Part shown: positions 16,523-28,397 of the stretch, piece by piece
Position numbering within the stretch: the first letter of the stretch is position 1
Layout: each line of letters begins with the position of its first letter
IMG/VR virus record: IMGVR_UViG_3300028653_000032
Coordinates: 1 to 40,279 of that record
Origin: a virus
Direction: 5' to 3' (one strand)
Length of the DNA: 40,279 bases
Position numbers and translations under genes: made by a program
Notes under the pieces: generated by a model
The model's database searches: none
Seen by the model: the letters and a program-made list of their open reading frames with translations, nothing else
Told to the model about the DNA's origin: nothing

Positions 16523-17020
16523 ATGATTGCCCAGGAACAAGTTTTAGAAAGAAGAGGTCTTTACTGCACGAACTGCGGTAATAAAGTTGAATCTGCAAGA
16601 ATGTTTACCGGGCCAGATTTGTTTAATAATCCAAACGAGATAAAACTTCATGAGCTATGTGCTTTCTGTGTAGCAGTATTTAAGAGTCTTATTCCTTCCA
16701 AAAAAACCGAAACAATAATCGAAAATGGAAAACCTATACTAAAAACAAAACAAAGAAAGCCGCGCAACAATCAAGGTACAACGTATTTGCTTGATATTAT
16801 TTTCAAAGAAGAAAAAAGCGAAACCTTGAGAATGTTTCGGCATAGACTCTATGCCACTAAGTCTAACACGGAAAACCCTAAGCTCAAAGAGGCGCTTATG
16901 GGAAAAATTGAGGAATTGCGTCAAGAGCTTATAAGACGCAAAGATTATTTCAAAGGAGGAATAGCGGGCAAGAAATGGCAAGACAAAAAAGAAAAATTAA
17001 AAGGAGAAGATAATGAATAA
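16523..17020 (+). CDS. Zinc-finger protein with LRMFRH helical motif
   Basis: The 165-residue protein has an N-terminal zinc-ribbon-like site (YCTNCGNKVE … HELCAFCVAV; CxxC…CxxC) and a basic stretch (KTKQRKPRNNQG). A C-terminal helical motif (LRMFRHRLYATK … IEELRQELIRRK) is shared with the 15932 gene. GGGAGG at 16511-16516 is the ribosome site. It overlaps queC by eight bases. A regulatory or nucleic-acid-binding role is plausible but unproven. Confidence 0.75.
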   Translation: MIAQEQVLERRGLYCTNCGNKVESARMFTGPDLFNNPNEIKLHELCAFCVAVFKSLIPSKKTETIIENGKPILKTKQRKPRNNQGTTYLLDIIFKEEKSETLRMFRHRLYATKSNTENPKLKEALMGKIEELRQELIRRKDYFKGGIAGKKWQDKKEKLKGEDNE

Positions 17021-17687
17021 AAGAGCATTGGTTTTATTGTCAGGCGGACTTGACTCAACAACGTGTCTATTTTGGGCGAAAGAAAGATTTGATCATGTAA
17101 CAGCTTTGACTATAAACTATGGACAAAAACATGCCATAGAACTTGAGTGTGCGGCAAGATCCGCCTCTGATTATGCAGATGCTGCCATTACACTTAATCT
17201 TGATATTTTAAAACAAATAGGAGATTCGGGGCTTGTTGATTCAAATATAAATGTCAACGATAGACACCGTGGAAATAAGAATCTTCCTGCTTCTTTTGTT
17301 CCAGGGCGTAACATTTTTTTCTTAACAACAGCAGCAGCAGTTGCATACAAAAGAGATATTGATAATATAGTAATTGGTGCCAATCAGGTTGATTATTCAG
17401 GATACCCTGATTGTCGAATTGAATTTTTAAATAGTATGCAGGAAACAATAAACCAAGGCCTGGAAAAACATATACAAATACTAGCACCTCTTCTATTTTT
17501 AAACAAAGTTGAAATTATTAAAGAAGGTGAAAGGTTAGGAAAATTTTCCTACATTATGAACGAAACGCATTCGTGCTATAATGGTTCGCGTTGTAAAATG
17601 GAATTTGGTGGACACGGATGCGGTATTTGTGACTCTTGTCGTATAAGGCAAGAAGCATATAAAGAATACCATAAGGGGATAAAATAA
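17013..17687 (+). CDS. queC: 7-cyano-7-deazaguanine (preQ0) synthase QueC
   Basis: The 224-residue, full-length QueC converts 7-carboxy-7-deazaguanine to preQ0 using ATP and ammonia. Seen: the PP-loop SGGLDSTTC (residues 10-18), INYGQKH, FVPGRN, the substrate motif DYSGYPDCR, and the zinc site with Cys in THSCYNG and HGCGICDSC. It is plain QueC without the amidotransferase fusion (Gat-QueC) some phages use to make archaeosine-like bases. It lies about 5 kb from queD, queE and folE but in the same early transcript direction. Confidence 0.96.
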   Translation: MNKRALVLLSGGLDSTTCLFWAKERFDHVTALTINYGQKHAIELECAARSASDYADAAITLNLDILKQIGDSGLVDSNINVNDRHRGNKNLPASFVPGRNIFFLTTAAAVAYKRDIDNIVIGANQVDYSGYPDCRIEFLNSMQETINQGLEKHIQILAPLLFLNKVEIIKEGERLGKFSYIMNETHSCYNGSRCKMEFGGHGCGICDSCRIRQEAYKEYHKGIK

Positions 17688-21568: not shown

Positions 21569-22226
21569 TAATCCTCACGACCCATATAGGCTCTGTGCTG
21601 TTTGTAAAGAAAGACATCTCTTTGACGGCCAGTTGTGCAATAGGTGTGCAAAAGTGTTTTCTTTGGAAATTGTAATTCCTTTCGGATGCAGAAATTTTAA
21701 TTTTGAGAATTTTAAAATAACACCTGCAAATCAAAACGCTTATCAAAAAGCAAAAGCATTTACTTCTATAAATAAATCTCTTTTTATATTTGGGAAAGAA
21801 ACAGGCTGCGGAAAAACACATCTTCAAATTTCAAGTCTAAGAGAAAGTTTAAAACAATTTAAAAAAAGTAAATATATAAATTATACTGAACTTGTATTAC
21901 TTGAAAGAAAACAATATCAAACAAAAGAAGACGCAGCAGCAGAAACAATAGATGAATGCTTAAACTGTAAAAGATTGTATATAGACGATTTATTTGCTGA
22001 AAGAATAACAGAACAATCATTGCAAGTTTTATATTCGATTTTAGATAATGCAATACTAAACGCAAAACCGCAAATATTTTTGACAAGTAATTTTACACTT
22101 GAGCAAATAGGAGATAAAGCAGATAGAATTGCAAGTAGAATTGTTCGTCTTTGCGGAACAGAAAACATTATTGCAAATATGGAAAACGATTGGAGTTTGA
22201 AAAATAAGGGAGGAAAAATTGGATAA
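21552..22226 (+). CDS. DnaC-like helicase loader with N-terminal zinc finger
   Basis: I chose ATG 21552 (224 residues), which has AAAGGA eight bases upstream; an earlier in-frame ATG lies inside the initiator gene. It has a zinc site (LCAVCKERHL…LCNRCAKVF), Walker A IFGKETGCGKTHL, Walker B RLYIDDLFAE and the sensor FLTSNFT. This is the DnaC/IstB AAA+ pattern. It would load the DnaB-like helicase encoded at 26806. Its end overlaps queD. Confidence 0.88.
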   Translation: MMQSNNNPHDPYRLCAVCKERHLFDGQLCNRCAKVFSLEIVIPFGCRNFNFENFKITPANQNAYQKAKAFTSINKSLFIFGKETGCGKTHLQISSLRESLKQFKKSKYINYTELVLLERKQYQTKEDAAAETIDECLNCKRLYIDDLFAERITEQSLQVLYSILDNAILNAKPQIFLTSNFTLEQIGDKADRIASRIVRLCGTENIIANMENDWSLKNKGGKIG

Positions 22227-22578
22227 AGATATTGTAACATTAAGCGTTAAACATCACTTTGACGCTGCACATTTTTTAAGGGACTACAAGGGAGCTTGTT
22301 CGAATTTGCATGGCCATAGATGGACAGTCAATATTTCAGTTATTGGAAAAGTAGACCCAAAAACTGGCATGCTAATTGATTTTAAAAAAGTAAAAGAAGT
22401 GATTGATGTGCTTGACCATAAATGTCTCAACGAAATTATTCCAGAAAATCCTACGGCAGAAAATATTGCAAAGAGAATATTGTTTGCAGTAAAAGATTTA
22501 ATACCAGGAACTCAGCAGGGTTTTGTTAGAGTAAAACTGTTTGAAACACCTGAAACTTCAGTGGAGGTACAATGTTAA
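22219..22578 (+). CDS. queD: 6-carboxy-5,6,7,8-tetrahydropterin synthase QueD
   Basis: The 119-residue protein starts at TTG 22219 with AGGGAGG five bases upstream. It makes 6-carboxytetrahydropterin from dihydroneopterin triphosphate. Zinc ligands are His18 (FDAAHF) and His31 and His33 (HGH). The catalytic Cys27 is in CSNLHGH, the CxxxHGH form that marks QueD rather than classic PTPS. LDHKCLN and ETPETSVEV supply the catalytic His and Glu. It overlaps genes on both sides. Confidence 0.95.
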   Translation: MDKDIVTLSVKHHFDAAHFLRDYKGACSNLHGHRWTVNISVIGKVDPKTGMLIDFKKVKEVIDVLDHKCLNEIIPENPTAENIAKRILFAVKDLIPGTQQGFVRVKLFETPETSVEVQC

Positions 22579-23183
22579 AAATTCAAGAAATTTTTGTAAG
22601 CGTACAGGGAGAGGGATTAAATATAGGTATTCCAATGACATTTATTCGTTTGCATGGATGCTCTATGGGTTGTAATTTTTGTGATACAAAAGAGACATGG
22701 AAAAGTGATATTTACAAAGAAATGCCAATACATGAAATAATGACCGCAGTTCTTGCACACAAAGTGCGCTGGGCTTGCATAACAGGCGGAGAACCAATGG
22801 AACAAGATATAATGGAGCTTATCTTAGCATTAAAGGCCGCAGGAATAGCTGTAGCTTTAGAAACCAACGGCTCTATTTTTAATCAAGAAATAATAGAAGA
22901 ATGCAATTGGGTAGCAGTAAGTCCAAAAGGAGTAATTCCTGAACAATGGAAAGATTTTAGCTATATCGATGAAATGAAAATTGTTATTCAAAAAGGAAAC
23001 GTGAACGAATTTATTCAAGTCTGGAGCTTTTTAAGAGAAAACGAAGTTTTGCTTTCAACTCCATTATTTTTACAGCCTTGCAATAATGATAAAGATATAG
23101 CTTCTCGTATTTGCGATTTTGTAATTGGAAATCCGTGGTTTCGTTTAGGTTATCAGATGCACAAAAGCTATCAATTAAGATAA
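22572..23183 (+). CDS. queE: 7-carboxy-7-deazaguanine synthase QueE (radical SAM)
   Basis: The 203-residue protein has the radical-SAM site CSMGCNFC (Cys30, 34, 37; CxxxCxxC), VQGEGLNIG at the N-terminus, ITGGEPMEQ and ALETNGS. It rearranges carboxytetrahydropterin to 7-carboxy-7-deazaguanine. TGGAGG is at 22561-22566 within queD, and the ATG lies in the last codons of queD, so translation is coupled. Confidence 0.95.
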   Translation: MLKIQEIFVSVQGEGLNIGIPMTFIRLHGCSMGCNFCDTKETWKSDIYKEMPIHEIMTAVLAHKVRWACITGGEPMEQDIMELILALKAAGIAVALETNGSIFNQEIIEECNWVAVSPKGVIPEQWKDFSYIDEMKIVIQKGNVNEFIQVWSFLRENEVLLSTPLFLQPCNNDKDIASRICDFVIGNPWFRLGYQMHKSYQLR

Positions 23184-23192
23184 GGAGAAATA

Positions 23193-24041
23193 ATGGAAAT
23201 TAAAAATCTTACATTTGAAGATGTTCGTTTGCAGATTATAAAAAAGGGCCTGCTGGATATAGTAAAAAACAAAAAGATATATGGAGTTCCCCGCGGCGGT
23301 TCTTGTGTAGCATTAATGCTGCACAGTGCAACACTTGTAAATATTCCAGAAGAAGCAGATATTATTGTTGATGATATAATTGATTCTGGAAAAACAAGAG
23401 ATAAATATTTTCTTTTATATCCCCATATTCCTTTTTATTCTTTATATGAAAAATCAAGCGCATGGTTACATTTTCCTTGGGAGCATAATGCTGAATGCGA
23501 CATACAAGATACAGTCATAAGACAACTTGAGTTTTTAGGAGAAAATGCCGCGAGAGAAGGCCTTGTAGAAACACCAAGCAGAGTTGTTAGAAGTTGGGAA
23601 AAACTATATGGAGGATATAACGAGAAGCCTGAAGAAATACTTTCAAAAACATTTACACAGCAATATGACGAAGTTGTTCTTTTGAAAGATATTGAATTGT
23701 ATTCGACCTGCGAGCATCATATGCTTCCATTTTTTGGAAAATGTCATATTGCTTATTTGCCTAATGATAAAATTGTAGGTATTTCAAAACTGGCCAGATT
23801 GATGGAATGTTTTGCAAGACGCCTGCAAATACAGGAAAGGCTTGTAAATCAAATTGCCGATGCTTTACAGGAACATCTTAAACCAAAAGGTGTTGCTGTG
23901 ATTGTAGAAGCACAGCATTTCTGTATGACTAGCAGGGGTGTTGAAAAACAGCGCAGCAAAATGGTTACATCTGCCTTAAGAGGTGTATTTCTTGAAAATT
24001 CAACTGCCAGAAAAGAATTACTTGATTTAATAAAATCATAG
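23193..24041 (+). CDS. folE: Phosphoribosyltransferase-like domain fused to GTP cyclohydrolase I (FolE)
   Basis: The 282-residue protein has two domains. Residues about 1-100 look like a compact purine phosphoribosyltransferase: IYGVPRGGSC (pyrophosphate loop), IIVDDIIDSGKTRD (PRPP loop, about 57-70) and LHFPWE, as in Gpt-type enzymes. Residues about 101-282 are GTP cyclohydrolase I with LVETPSRV, STCEHHMLPF and AQHFCMTSRG (zinc Cys, His, Cys) and QRSKMVTSA. FolE makes dihydroneopterin triphosphate, the QueD substrate. The first domain may feed guanine nucleotide to FolE or act on a deazapurine; this is inference. Confidence 0.9.
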   Translation: MEIKNLTFEDVRLQIIKKGLLDIVKNKKIYGVPRGGSCVALMLHSATLVNIPEEADIIVDDIIDSGKTRDKYFLLYPHIPFYSLYEKSSAWLHFPWEHNAECDIQDTVIRQLEFLGENAAREGLVETPSRVVRSWEKLYGGYNEKPEEILSKTFTQQYDEVVLLKDIELYSTCEHHMLPFFGKCHIAYLPNDKIVGISKLARLMECFARRLQIQERLVNQIADALQEHLKPKGVAVIVEAQHFCMTSRGVEKQRSKMVTSALRGVFLENSTARKELLDLIKS

Positions 24042-24050
24042 GAGATAAAA

Positions 24051-24365
24051 ATGAAAGTAATAGCAATTGATATTGATGGAATACTTACAGTTAAAGATGA
24101 AATATCAGCAAAAGAGTACGATAAAATGACAACACTTGATTTAGAAAAAAAGTACAGGCAATGTGTTCCAAATAAAGAAGCCATAAAGAACTGTAATAAA
24201 TTTTATCAGCATAACACTGTATTTCTTTATACTTGTCGTGATTATAGATTTTTTGATATTACTGTTCAATGGTTAAATGAGAACAATGTAGCATACCATT
24301 CTTTAATAATGAATAAACCTTATTATGATATAATTTTTGATGATAAGGCGGTTAATGTTCTATGA
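24051..24365 (+). CDS. Small HAD-like phosphatase
   Basis: The 104-residue protein has HAD motif I at IDIDGILTV (Asp7, Asp9), FLYTCRDYRF in the motif II region, and DIIFDDKAVNVL as motif IV. There is no cap domain, so it resembles T4-PNK-type phosphatase or nucleotidase folds. It lies between folE and the dpdA-like gene and overlaps the latter (ATGA), suggesting work on a nucleotide or DNA end tied to the modification pathway. Substrate unknown. Confidence 0.75.
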   Translation: MKVIAIDIDGILTVKDEISAKEYDKMTTLDLEKKYRQCVPNKEAIKNCNKFYQHNTVFLYTCRDYRFFDITVQWLNENNVAYHSLIMNKPYYDIIFDDKAVNVL

Positions 24366-25216
24366 AAATAAAAGTTTTTTTTGTAAGCGGTGCAGCAAGA
24401 CAATTATTTGGAACGCTTGATTATAATATCAGAAAAATACTTTGTTCGTATTGGTATTATAAAACAGCCCCGGTAAAGAAAATGATTTTTGCAGTTAAGG
24501 AAAAAATGAAGAATGATAAAGAGTTTGAGCTGTTTATAGACTCTGGAGCATTTTCGGCATTTACAAAAGGAATCAAAATAAGTGTTGATGGATATTGTAA
24601 ATATATTCAAGAAATTAATCCAACGCAATATGCGGCCCTGGATGTTATTGGCGACCCTGAAGCATCTGAAAAAAATACTTTAATAATGGAAGACAAGTAT
24701 GGTTTAAAACCTATTCCTGCTTATCATTTATGCGAAGACTATAAATATTTGCATCGAATGATAAAGAAATATGACTACATAGCTTTTGGAGGAATGGTTG
24801 GTGCTTCAAAAGAAAAGCTTGTTTCTTGGCTTGATAATGCTTGGCATATTGTTTTAAAAGAAAAACCACAGTTAAAAGTACATGGATTTGGAATGACTAA
24901 CCTTGAAATACTTAAAATGTATCCATGGTATTCTGTTGATAGTTCGTCTATTACTTCCTCTGTAAGATATGGAAATATTGCATTTATCTCTGAAAACGGT
25001 AATATAAAAAAACAACGTACATCAAAATTTGTGTATGAGTACGGCTTAAATAACGATCAGTCTATTTTTTCTGATAATAATAAAAAACAAGTGGTATGTC
25101 TTGTCCAGGCAGCAAATGTTTTTATGAAACAAATAGAAACGTTAGAGGAGGAACGCAAAAAAATAAATTACAATAGTATGGGAGGAAAATTAAGCCTTCC
25201 TGGGTTTGAAATTTGA
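24362..25216 (+). CDS. dpdA: DpdA-like DNA transglycosylase (phage TGT-family)
   Basis: The 284-residue protein has the signature of phage DpdA, a relative of tRNA-guanine transglycosylase: FIDSGAFSAFTKG, YAALDVIGDPEAS, PIPAYHLCED, YIAFGGMVG, VHGFGMTN and YSVDSSSITSSVRYG. Such enzymes swap guanine in DNA for preQ0 or a related 7-deazaguanine. With FolE, QueD, QueE and QueC in the same genome the donor pathway is complete. No QueF-like reductase or amidotransferase was recognised, so dPreQ0 is the simplest predicted base. ATGA overlap couples it to the HAD gene. Confidence 0.87.
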   Translation: MKIKVFFVSGAARQLFGTLDYNIRKILCSYWYYKTAPVKKMIFAVKEKMKNDKEFELFIDSGAFSAFTKGIKISVDGYCKYIQEINPTQYAALDVIGDPEASEKNTLIMEDKYGLKPIPAYHLCEDYKYLHRMIKKYDYIAFGGMVGASKEKLVSWLDNAWHIVLKEKPQLKVHGFGMTNLEILKMYPWYSVDSSSITSSVRYGNIAFISENGNIKKQRTSKFVYEYGLNNDQSIFSDNNKKQVVCLVQAANVFMKQIETLEEERKKINYNSMGGKLSLPGFEI

Positions 25217-26552: not shown

Positions 26553-26788
26553 ATATAAGAACTATTTTATGTATTTTGTTTTGTCTTTTATTATCAAGCT
26601 GTTGTTCTATAAATGAAATGAAAAAACAATGTACCTTAACATTGATTGATCAAAACTCTTAATGTTATGCTATTGTTCACGACGAGTCAAAAACAGATAC
26701 AGAAAAACTTAAACGCATCAAAGAGTATACGGAGGCCTGGAAATCTCTTTGTGATTTATATATAAAAACCTTTAAACATAAAGAATAA
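26549..26788 (+). pseudogene. Small lipoprotein gene interrupted by an in-frame TAA
   Basis: ATG 26549 overlaps the previous stop. The first 37 codons encode a lipoprotein signal (MNIRTILCILFCLLLSSCC, lipobox LSSC) and then …LTLIDQNS. TAA 26660-26662 stops it, yet the same frame stays open for 41 more codons (CYAIVHDESKTDTEKLKRIK … ) to TAA 26786. The downstream part is soluble and helical like a lipoprotein body, so the stop looks like a nonsense mutation, a sequencing error or a readthrough site. The short 37-residue lipopeptide could still be made. Confidence 0.6.
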
Positions 26789-26805
26789 GATTAAAAGGAA
26801 AACAA

Positions 26806-27626
26806 ATGCAAAATAAAATACTTGAACAAAATTATATGGAAGTATTTAAAAAGTGTAACGAAATGGAAGCAGAATTATTTAAAAGAGAGGCTTCCCCTAT
26901 CCAACAGGCCTGCCGACACTTGACGACTACCTGGGCGGATGTCACAAAAGAGAAATTATAACTGTTTGCGGAGCTTCCTCGATAGGAAAGACAGCACTAA
27001 TGACTCAACTAGGAGTAGAGCTTGCCAGAAAAGGCGCAAAGGTTATTGAGTTCCAGCTCGAAATGGACCCAGAACACATTGTTGACAGAATAATAAGCTA
27101 TGAGACAGGAATAGAAAACTACAAGATCCAATATGCGAAGGCAGAGGACAAAGATCTTTCAAGGATAGGACAATCTCTTGGAGAAAACGATTTTTACAAA
27201 ATACCTTTTTTTATTTGTGATTCTCCAAATGTGTCACTGCCGGGCATAAAAGAAGTAGTAAGACAGTATACTCCTGACTTCATAATAGTCGACTATATAC
27301 AAATTATGAGATTCAATGAAGGAGAAAACCAAGAACGAAAAATAGCTCATTTTATGACAAGCTTAAAAAGTTTTGTTAGAGAACGGAACATAGGGGCAAT
27401 CATTGGATCTCAGGTAACTGCTCAAATGGATGGCAGTTGGGATGCTAAGGGCGCAAAAGCGATAAAAGAAACATCAGACCGAATGATAATCTTGAATGTT
27501 AAAAAAAAGGATAGAGAAGACAAAATATGGCCAATGGAGTTGATCATTGACAAGAATCGACATGGCCCGGTAGGAACAATGACAATAAAGTTTTACAGAC
27601 AAAAACTCACATTTTCAGAAACGTAA
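26806..27626 (+). pseudogene. DnaB-like replicative helicase (RecA-fold) split by an apparent frameshift
   Basis: ATG 26806, with AAAAGG upstream, opens a frame encoding MQNKILEQNYMEVFKK… that stops at 26959. The helicase core is in the -1 frame, open only from 26883: YPTGLPTLDDYLGG, Walker A GASSIGKT (26970-26993), FQLEMD, Walker B DFIIVDYIQI, IGAIIGSQV and the C-terminal GPVGTMTIKFYRQ. The only ATG in that frame (27000) is past Walker A, so it cannot be the true start. One added base in AAAA (26881-26884) or CCCC (26894-26897) would restore a protein of about 273 residues. Sequencing error, real mutation and recoding are all possible. Confidence 0.8.

Positions 27627-27812: not shown

Positions 27813-28393
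<581 letters not shown>

Positions 28394-28397
<4 letters not shown>

Follow-up and report, generated by a model that had tools for sequence, protein, structure and literature searches.

A Gpt-family phosphoribosyltransferase domain lacking the catalytic loop is fused to GTP cyclohydrolase I in phages with 7-deazaguanine genes

7-Deazaguanine is a protective DNA base, and GTP cyclohydrolase I (FolE) is the first enzyme of its synthesis. The base reaches DNA through DpdA, which exchanges guanine for preQ0-type bases, probably in the manner of TGT, and the FolE of Enterobacteria phage 9g, a member of the Queuovirinae, complements an E. coli folE mutant (PMC6884629). In phosphoribosyltransferases (PRTases) related to those considered here, a flexible loop covers the active site during catalysis (PMC6783271). 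The locus described below joins the two kinds of enzyme: a FolE preceded by a PRTase domain from which this loop is missing.

The window analysed is a stretch of viral DNA of 40,279 nucleotides; all five pathway genes looked for lie in it, and the 7-deazaguanine pathway is predicted for this phage. The fusion ORF is preceded by queE and followed by a short HAD-like ORF, after which comes dpdA. The features are as follows.

17013-17687, plus strand: ORF matching TIGR00364 above cut-off.
22219-22578, plus strand: queD (6-carboxytetrahydropterin synthase), matching TIGR03367 above cut-off, and PF01242.
22572-23183, plus strand: queE, matching phrog_2076 (E = 9e-33); the QueE NCBIfam models all score below their cut-offs.
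23193-24041, plus strand: PRTase-FolE fusion protein, 282 aa, ATG start; AlphaFold2 full-length model, mean pLDDT 96.2.
23193-23492, plus strand: Gpt/XPRT-family PRTase domain, loopless, residues 1-100, assigned by profile, AlphaFold2 and Foldseek.
23283-23300, plus strand: GVPRGG, residues 31-36, pyrophosphate loop (Gpt R37, G38, G39); G36 in 95/95 relatives, R34 in 89/95, G35 in 91/95.
23367-23396, plus strand: VDDIIDSGKT, residues 59-68, PRPP motif (Gpt D88, D89, D92, G94, T96), assigned by conservation.
23451-23483, plus strand: K87 and W91-LHFPWE97, purine-base pocket (Gpt K115, W134, W139, D140), assigned by conservation and alignment.
23505-24035, plus strand: FolE domain, residues 105-281, PF01227 and TIGR00063 above cut-off.
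24051-24365, plus strand: small HAD-phosphatase-like protein, 104 aa (phrog_1238, E = 6e-16; phrog_415, E = 6e-10).
24362-25216, plus strand: dpdA-type DNA guanine transglycosylase (phrog_887, E = 9e-58); the match to the DpdA model NF041059 is weak and below cut-off.

The first-pass annotation had read this ORF as about 100 PRTase-like residues in front of a full FolE, and the motifs on which it relied were all located (GVPRGG at residues 31-36, VDDIIDSGKTR at 59-69 and FPWE at 94-97). The FolE half is a full type IA domain (PF01227, E = 1.2e-73; TIGR00063, score 235 bits, cut-off 181.6), in which C173, H176 and C244 correspond to the zinc ligands and are invariant in 94 relatives. The HAD-phosphatase-like ORF sits between the fusion gene and dpdA, and its link to the pathway is putative. 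Two further observations were made elsewhere in the window. The ORF at 27000-27626 encodes a DnaB-type helicase C-terminal domain whose match begins at profile position 46; the preceding part, which would hold the Walker A region, is apparently missing or encoded upstream in another frame (26553-26999). The ORF at 27813-28397 is extremely Ala-rich and repetitive, with repeats of the AYADVAAD type, a Leu/Met-rich overlapping frame and a weak, below-cut-off Imm5-like match.

As a single sequence, residues 1-100 match PRTases weakly (phrog_8995, E = 2e-6; XPRT model NF006613, E = 7e-4), and a Pfam scan gave no PRTase match above cut-off; PF00156 was rejected as a detector of the domain because the fused domain scores below its cut-off. 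A profile built from 98 relatives, compared with the E. coli and Yersinia XGPRT, gave an end-to-end match (E = 8e-12). The AlphaFold2 model of the domain has a pLDDT of 92.3, and the best PDB matches of the predicted fold in Foldseek were XGPRT (E = 9e-6, probability 1.00), including the Mg:cPRPP-guanine complex. The domain search and structure prediction that had been proposed for these residues thus return a PRTase fold, and residues 1-100 are assigned, by homology and predicted fold, to the Gpt/XPRT family.

Conservation was measured over 104 domain positions in 95 fused relatives that were less than 85% identical to one another. In the PRPP motif, D60, D61, D64 and G66 were each found in 95/95 sequences and T68 in 94/95; in the base pocket, W91 and P95 were found in 95/95, K87 in 92/94, E97 in 93/95 and W96 in 91/95. 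Together with P33 and G36, six of these positions (D60, D61, D64, G66, W91 and P95) are invariant. Among the 14 positions that we take to contact ligands in Gpt, on the basis of XPRT structures, 12 fall within the 20 most conserved of the 104 (p = 6e-9), and elsewhere the domain is divergent (mean column identity 31%). On sequence evidence, the N-terminal domain is thus a conserved member of a large phage family and no chance match to motifs.

The domain had been noted as much shorter than usual Gpt-type enzymes, and it is short because two segments are reduced relative to E. coli Gpt. The spacer between RGG and DD has 23 residues here and 20-42 in the family, against 48 in Gpt; the spacer between the base-binding Lys and Trp, which holds the hood insert, has 3 residues here and 3-16 in the family, against 18 in Gpt. 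None of the 95 fused relatives has the flexible catalytic loop. Most of the hood insert is absent as well, and the AlphaFold2 model has no hairpin between the RGG and PRPP motifs.

FolE is uncommon among phages, with 392 of 50,697 records carrying it. The fusion is present in Pseudomonas phages NP1, PaMx25 and Baskent_P4_1, in Vibrio phages VpKK5 and 1.207.B, in Sphingomonas phage MMDA13 and in others, and the annotated records examined label the protein solely as GTP cyclohydrolase. One scan of viral contigs yielded 311 relatives of the domain, which, contig ends and probable chimeras aside, was always fused to FolE in the loci examined. The search for the same fusion in other preQ0 phages, suggested at the outset, gave 132 non-redundant fused phage loci, nearly always inside queC/D/E-dpdA operons; DpdA lay within 6.5 kb of the fusion in 119 of them, many of the others being cut by contig ends. 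An independent sample of 80 contigs seeded with FolE contained 30 fused loci (DpdA in 30/30) and 50 unfused ones (DpdA in 47/50). A family-specific HMM for the domain found no match within 8 kb of the 50 unfused folE loci, and PF00156, whose silence excludes conventional PRTases only, was silent in 31 unfused phage records; many DpdA phages carry no recognised PRTase. Since fused and unfused DpdA loci are both common, the domain is an optional extra in the 7-deazaguanine pathway. The phages that carry it fall into two or more dissimilar lineages, one Queuovirinae-like with adjoining clamp and polymerase genes, another with adjoining terminase and ParB-like genes.

Other candidates examined in this survey were not retained. 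A conserved operon guanylate kinase was rejected, as no such gene recurs in the neighbourhoods of the fused loci. The Listeria phage fragment OR849546 is not a fusion: its folE follows an HU gene and encodes an ordinary FolE. A Lewinella MAG (L096) was considered for a further kind of fusion partner, but its reading frame enters unrelated sequence, on a probably chimeric contig. In Pseudomonas phage Baskent_P4_1, an unannotated DpdA ORF lies directly downstream of the fused folE (L004 7801-8724, PP992516.1).

Three bacterial MAG loci also carry the fusion, one from Candidatus Peribacteria and two from marine genomes. In the Peribacteria MAG (L094 5857-6828, MFXT01000023.1) the fusion adjoins folA and thyA on a bacterial chromosome; 75 other genomes of the Peribacteria class that have FolE matched over the FolE part only. 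The two marine MAGs (L097 5084-7473 and L095), which are small bacterial genomes of 0.8-1.0 Mb, have in a row two PTPS genes, the PRTase-FolE gene and a short-chain dehydrogenase, a cluster that resembles one of the tetrahydrobiopterin pterin type. A search of the three cellular genomes for DpdA detected none. K[N/S]G replaces RGG in these three members and in no others of the 95; that loss of RGG tracks the absence of DpdA is suggestive only, as these sequences represent at most two independent cellular lineages.

The phylogenies do not favour one founding event. Mapped onto the FolE tree, the fusion is gained or lost as many as 21 times, and well-supported branches require at least 6 of these changes. 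The FolE of the Peribacteria MAG lies inside the bacterial FolEs with full support; a single fusion origin, with FolE inherited as a unit, was rejected on these grounds. The fused PRTase domains cluster together on their own tree (SH-aLRT 94), which rests on few columns, in which most forks are weak, and with which one loss of the loop and two losses are both compatible. Because the fused FolEs are scattered and the PRTase domains group, the domain has probably moved between FolE genes, being gained and lost; because the Peribacteria FolE groups with other bacterial FolEs, the domain was probably grafted onto a second FolE at least once.

PRTases of the same family also occur in phages as separate genes. 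Flavobacterium phage immuto has the order queD-queE-PRT-folE-dpdA, with a PRTase that is loopless and keeps the hood insert. Brevundimonas phage MaInes has the order dNMP kinase-folE-XPRT, with the loop present and queE/D/C elsewhere. A MaInes hypothetical protein adjoining queE (L272 862-1662, minus strand, ON529866.1) has a weak transglycosylase match (E = 4e-5) and is possibly a divergent DpdA2. In a set of 126 distinct separate PRTases, with nearby genes counted only for those away from contig ends, que or folE genes were found near 61/62 loopless and 7/21 loop-bearing proteins (p = 6e-10, a value that overstates independence, the samples being related and found with loopless seeds). Seventy separate PRTases lay within 150 nt of folE, and 38 of these overlapped it. 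Seventeen records with a PRTase mostly not adjoining folE were searched over their full length, 11 of them at least 40 kb long; 10 of these 11 had FolE and/or a transglycosylase, against the frequency of FolE in all phage records given above, and therefore phage Gpt-family PRTases largely belong to 7-deazaguanine phages. Two of the 11, phage contigs of 58 and 44 kb (G204:C1:41083-41919 and G211:C1:6826-7644), have a loop-bearing XPRT and a DpdA-like transglycosylase and no FolE, a pattern that fits a salvage enzyme tied to the transglycosylase itself.

Any account of function has to accommodate the homology, fold, conservation of ligand motifs, loop loss and co-occurrence with FolE, QueC/D/E and DpdA, all of which were read from sequence and models. 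The explanation that we prefer, and to which we give an even chance of being right, is that the domain converts the guanine released by DpdA to GMP, and hence to GTP for FolE. Carried by a decameric FolE, the PRPP- and guanine-binding core of Gpt/XPRT would meet one free guanine for each guanine of phage DNA that DpdA swaps for a 7-deazaguanine base, while each preQ0 would cost one GTP at FolE. The N-terminal domain would combine guanine and PRPP into GMP, and host (or phage) kinases would raise GMP to GTP, feeding FolE and closing the cycle one for one; removal of guanine would also pull the DpdA exchange forward. Catalytic activity, guanine as the substrate and recycling as the purpose are what we infer.

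Guanine salvage is favoured by the XGPRT profile and fold with conserved Gpt ligand residues, by the co-occurrence with DpdA, and by the restriction of K[N/S]G to the cellular members that lack DpdA; the separate Gpt-family genes of other 7-deazaguanine phages (immuto, MaInes, G204 and G211) point the same way. Against it stand the absence of the catalytic loop throughout the fused family, the lack of a recurrent guanylate kinase, the many DpdA phages that are PRTase-free, the two cellular lineages that retain the fusion without DpdA, and the fact that most hosts possess their own guanine salvage. The first-pass annotation had the domain channel salvaged guanine to GTP for FolE; its salvage part stands on the evidence just given, and direct channelling is unsupported, because a PRTase yields GMP and the substrate of FolE is GTP.

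The loop loss that weakens recycling is also an argument for a regulatory sensor, a possibility that we rate well below recycling: the loopless domain, without turnover, would bind PRPP, guanine, GMP or (p)ppGpp and tune the activity or assembly of FolE. The loop is gone in 95/95 fused relatives, and among separate PRTases it is the loopless ones that keep to que and folE genes, often overlapping them, a close linkage to be expected of a FolE partner rather than of a free enzyme; these loop statistics come from related, non-independent sequences collected with loopless seeds. In HPRT, a close relative, ppGpp occupies the same pocket, and an HPRT with a partial deletion of loop II binds it as well as the wild type does (PMC6783271). 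The enzyme that carries the domain is, moreover, the first committed one, and the domain is retained in cellular folate or pterin settings without DpdA. However, phages keep RGG and the general-base Asp almost invariant, although a pure sensor could dispense with both, and full-length XPRTs, which are surely enzymes, are found in the same pathway. A neighbouring proposal, equally tentative, is that a Gpt has turned into a dedicated FolE subunit, either as a guanine-nucleotide/PRPP sensor or with an active site completed by FolE, which would couple FolE flux to the guanine released by DpdA.

It is improbable that the domain is a degenerate or structural remnant that aids the folding or assembly of FolE with no ligand function. 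Loss of the loop and hood insertions would agree with this, as would the 9g FolE, which works without the domain (PMC6884629), so that FolE catalysis is independent of it; here one half of an earlier refuting scenario is found, relatives without the first 100 residues that retain activity. However, a remnant would not be expected to keep its ligand-binding positions as the most conserved of the domain. Least probable is action on preQ0 or another 7-deazapurine base to yield a nucleotide, also raised in the first-pass annotation and now disfavoured: the domain does sit in preQ0 operons and its base pocket could in principle be relaxed, but the pocket residues are those that Gpt uses for guanine and xanthine, the invariant D64 corresponds to Gpt D92, at which position the Asp of type I PRTases contacts purine N7, an atom that deazapurines do not have, DpdA inserts the free base, which makes a nucleotide unnecessary, and most of the other preQ0 phages in the sample do not have the domain.

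In many phages, among them cultured ones of Pseudomonas, Vibrio and Sphingomonas, hypermodification of DNA bases begins with FolE, and the N-terminal third of its fused form had been unannotated until now. If recycling is correct, it would balance base exchange in both carbon and energy; the guanine by-product problem is undiscussed in the 7-deazaguanine papers examined. If instead the domain is a sensor, these phages would have a regulated bacterial-type FolE and a PRTase turned regulator by loss of its catalytic loop. No description of a PRTase-FolE fusion was found in the open-access literature searched; the Gpt family is known, and there seems to be no earlier report of a loopless member fused to FolE in phages that modify their DNA.

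Compared with known systems, the phage domain is homologous end to end to XGPRT (Gpt; PDB 1A95, 6KP5 and 5XTK; E. coli and Yersinia pestis) and has the RGG, DDxxD[S/T]GxT, Lys, Trp and PW[D/E] motifs in identical order. It differs from XGPRT in that the flexible-loop hairpin is deleted, the hood is shortened, FolE is fused to it and its occurrence is almost confined to phages. The FolE of phage 9g has the same operon and FolE domain as the fusion protein but, at 204 aa, is without the PRTase domain. The phrog_8995 'phosphoribosyl transferase' and the phage XPRTs of Cellulophaga phiST, immuto and MaInes are of the same family but are encoded by separate genes; those of the three named phages adjoin, or share a genome with, FolE, que genes and a transglycosylase, and the loop is kept in the phiST and MaInes proteins, unlike in the fused domain and the immuto PRTase. 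In animals, GTP cyclohydrolase I is regulated by feedback through GFRP, a small FolE partner; should the sensor reading be right, the phage domain would be a small FolE partner of the same kind, a likeness of function for which homology is not claimed.
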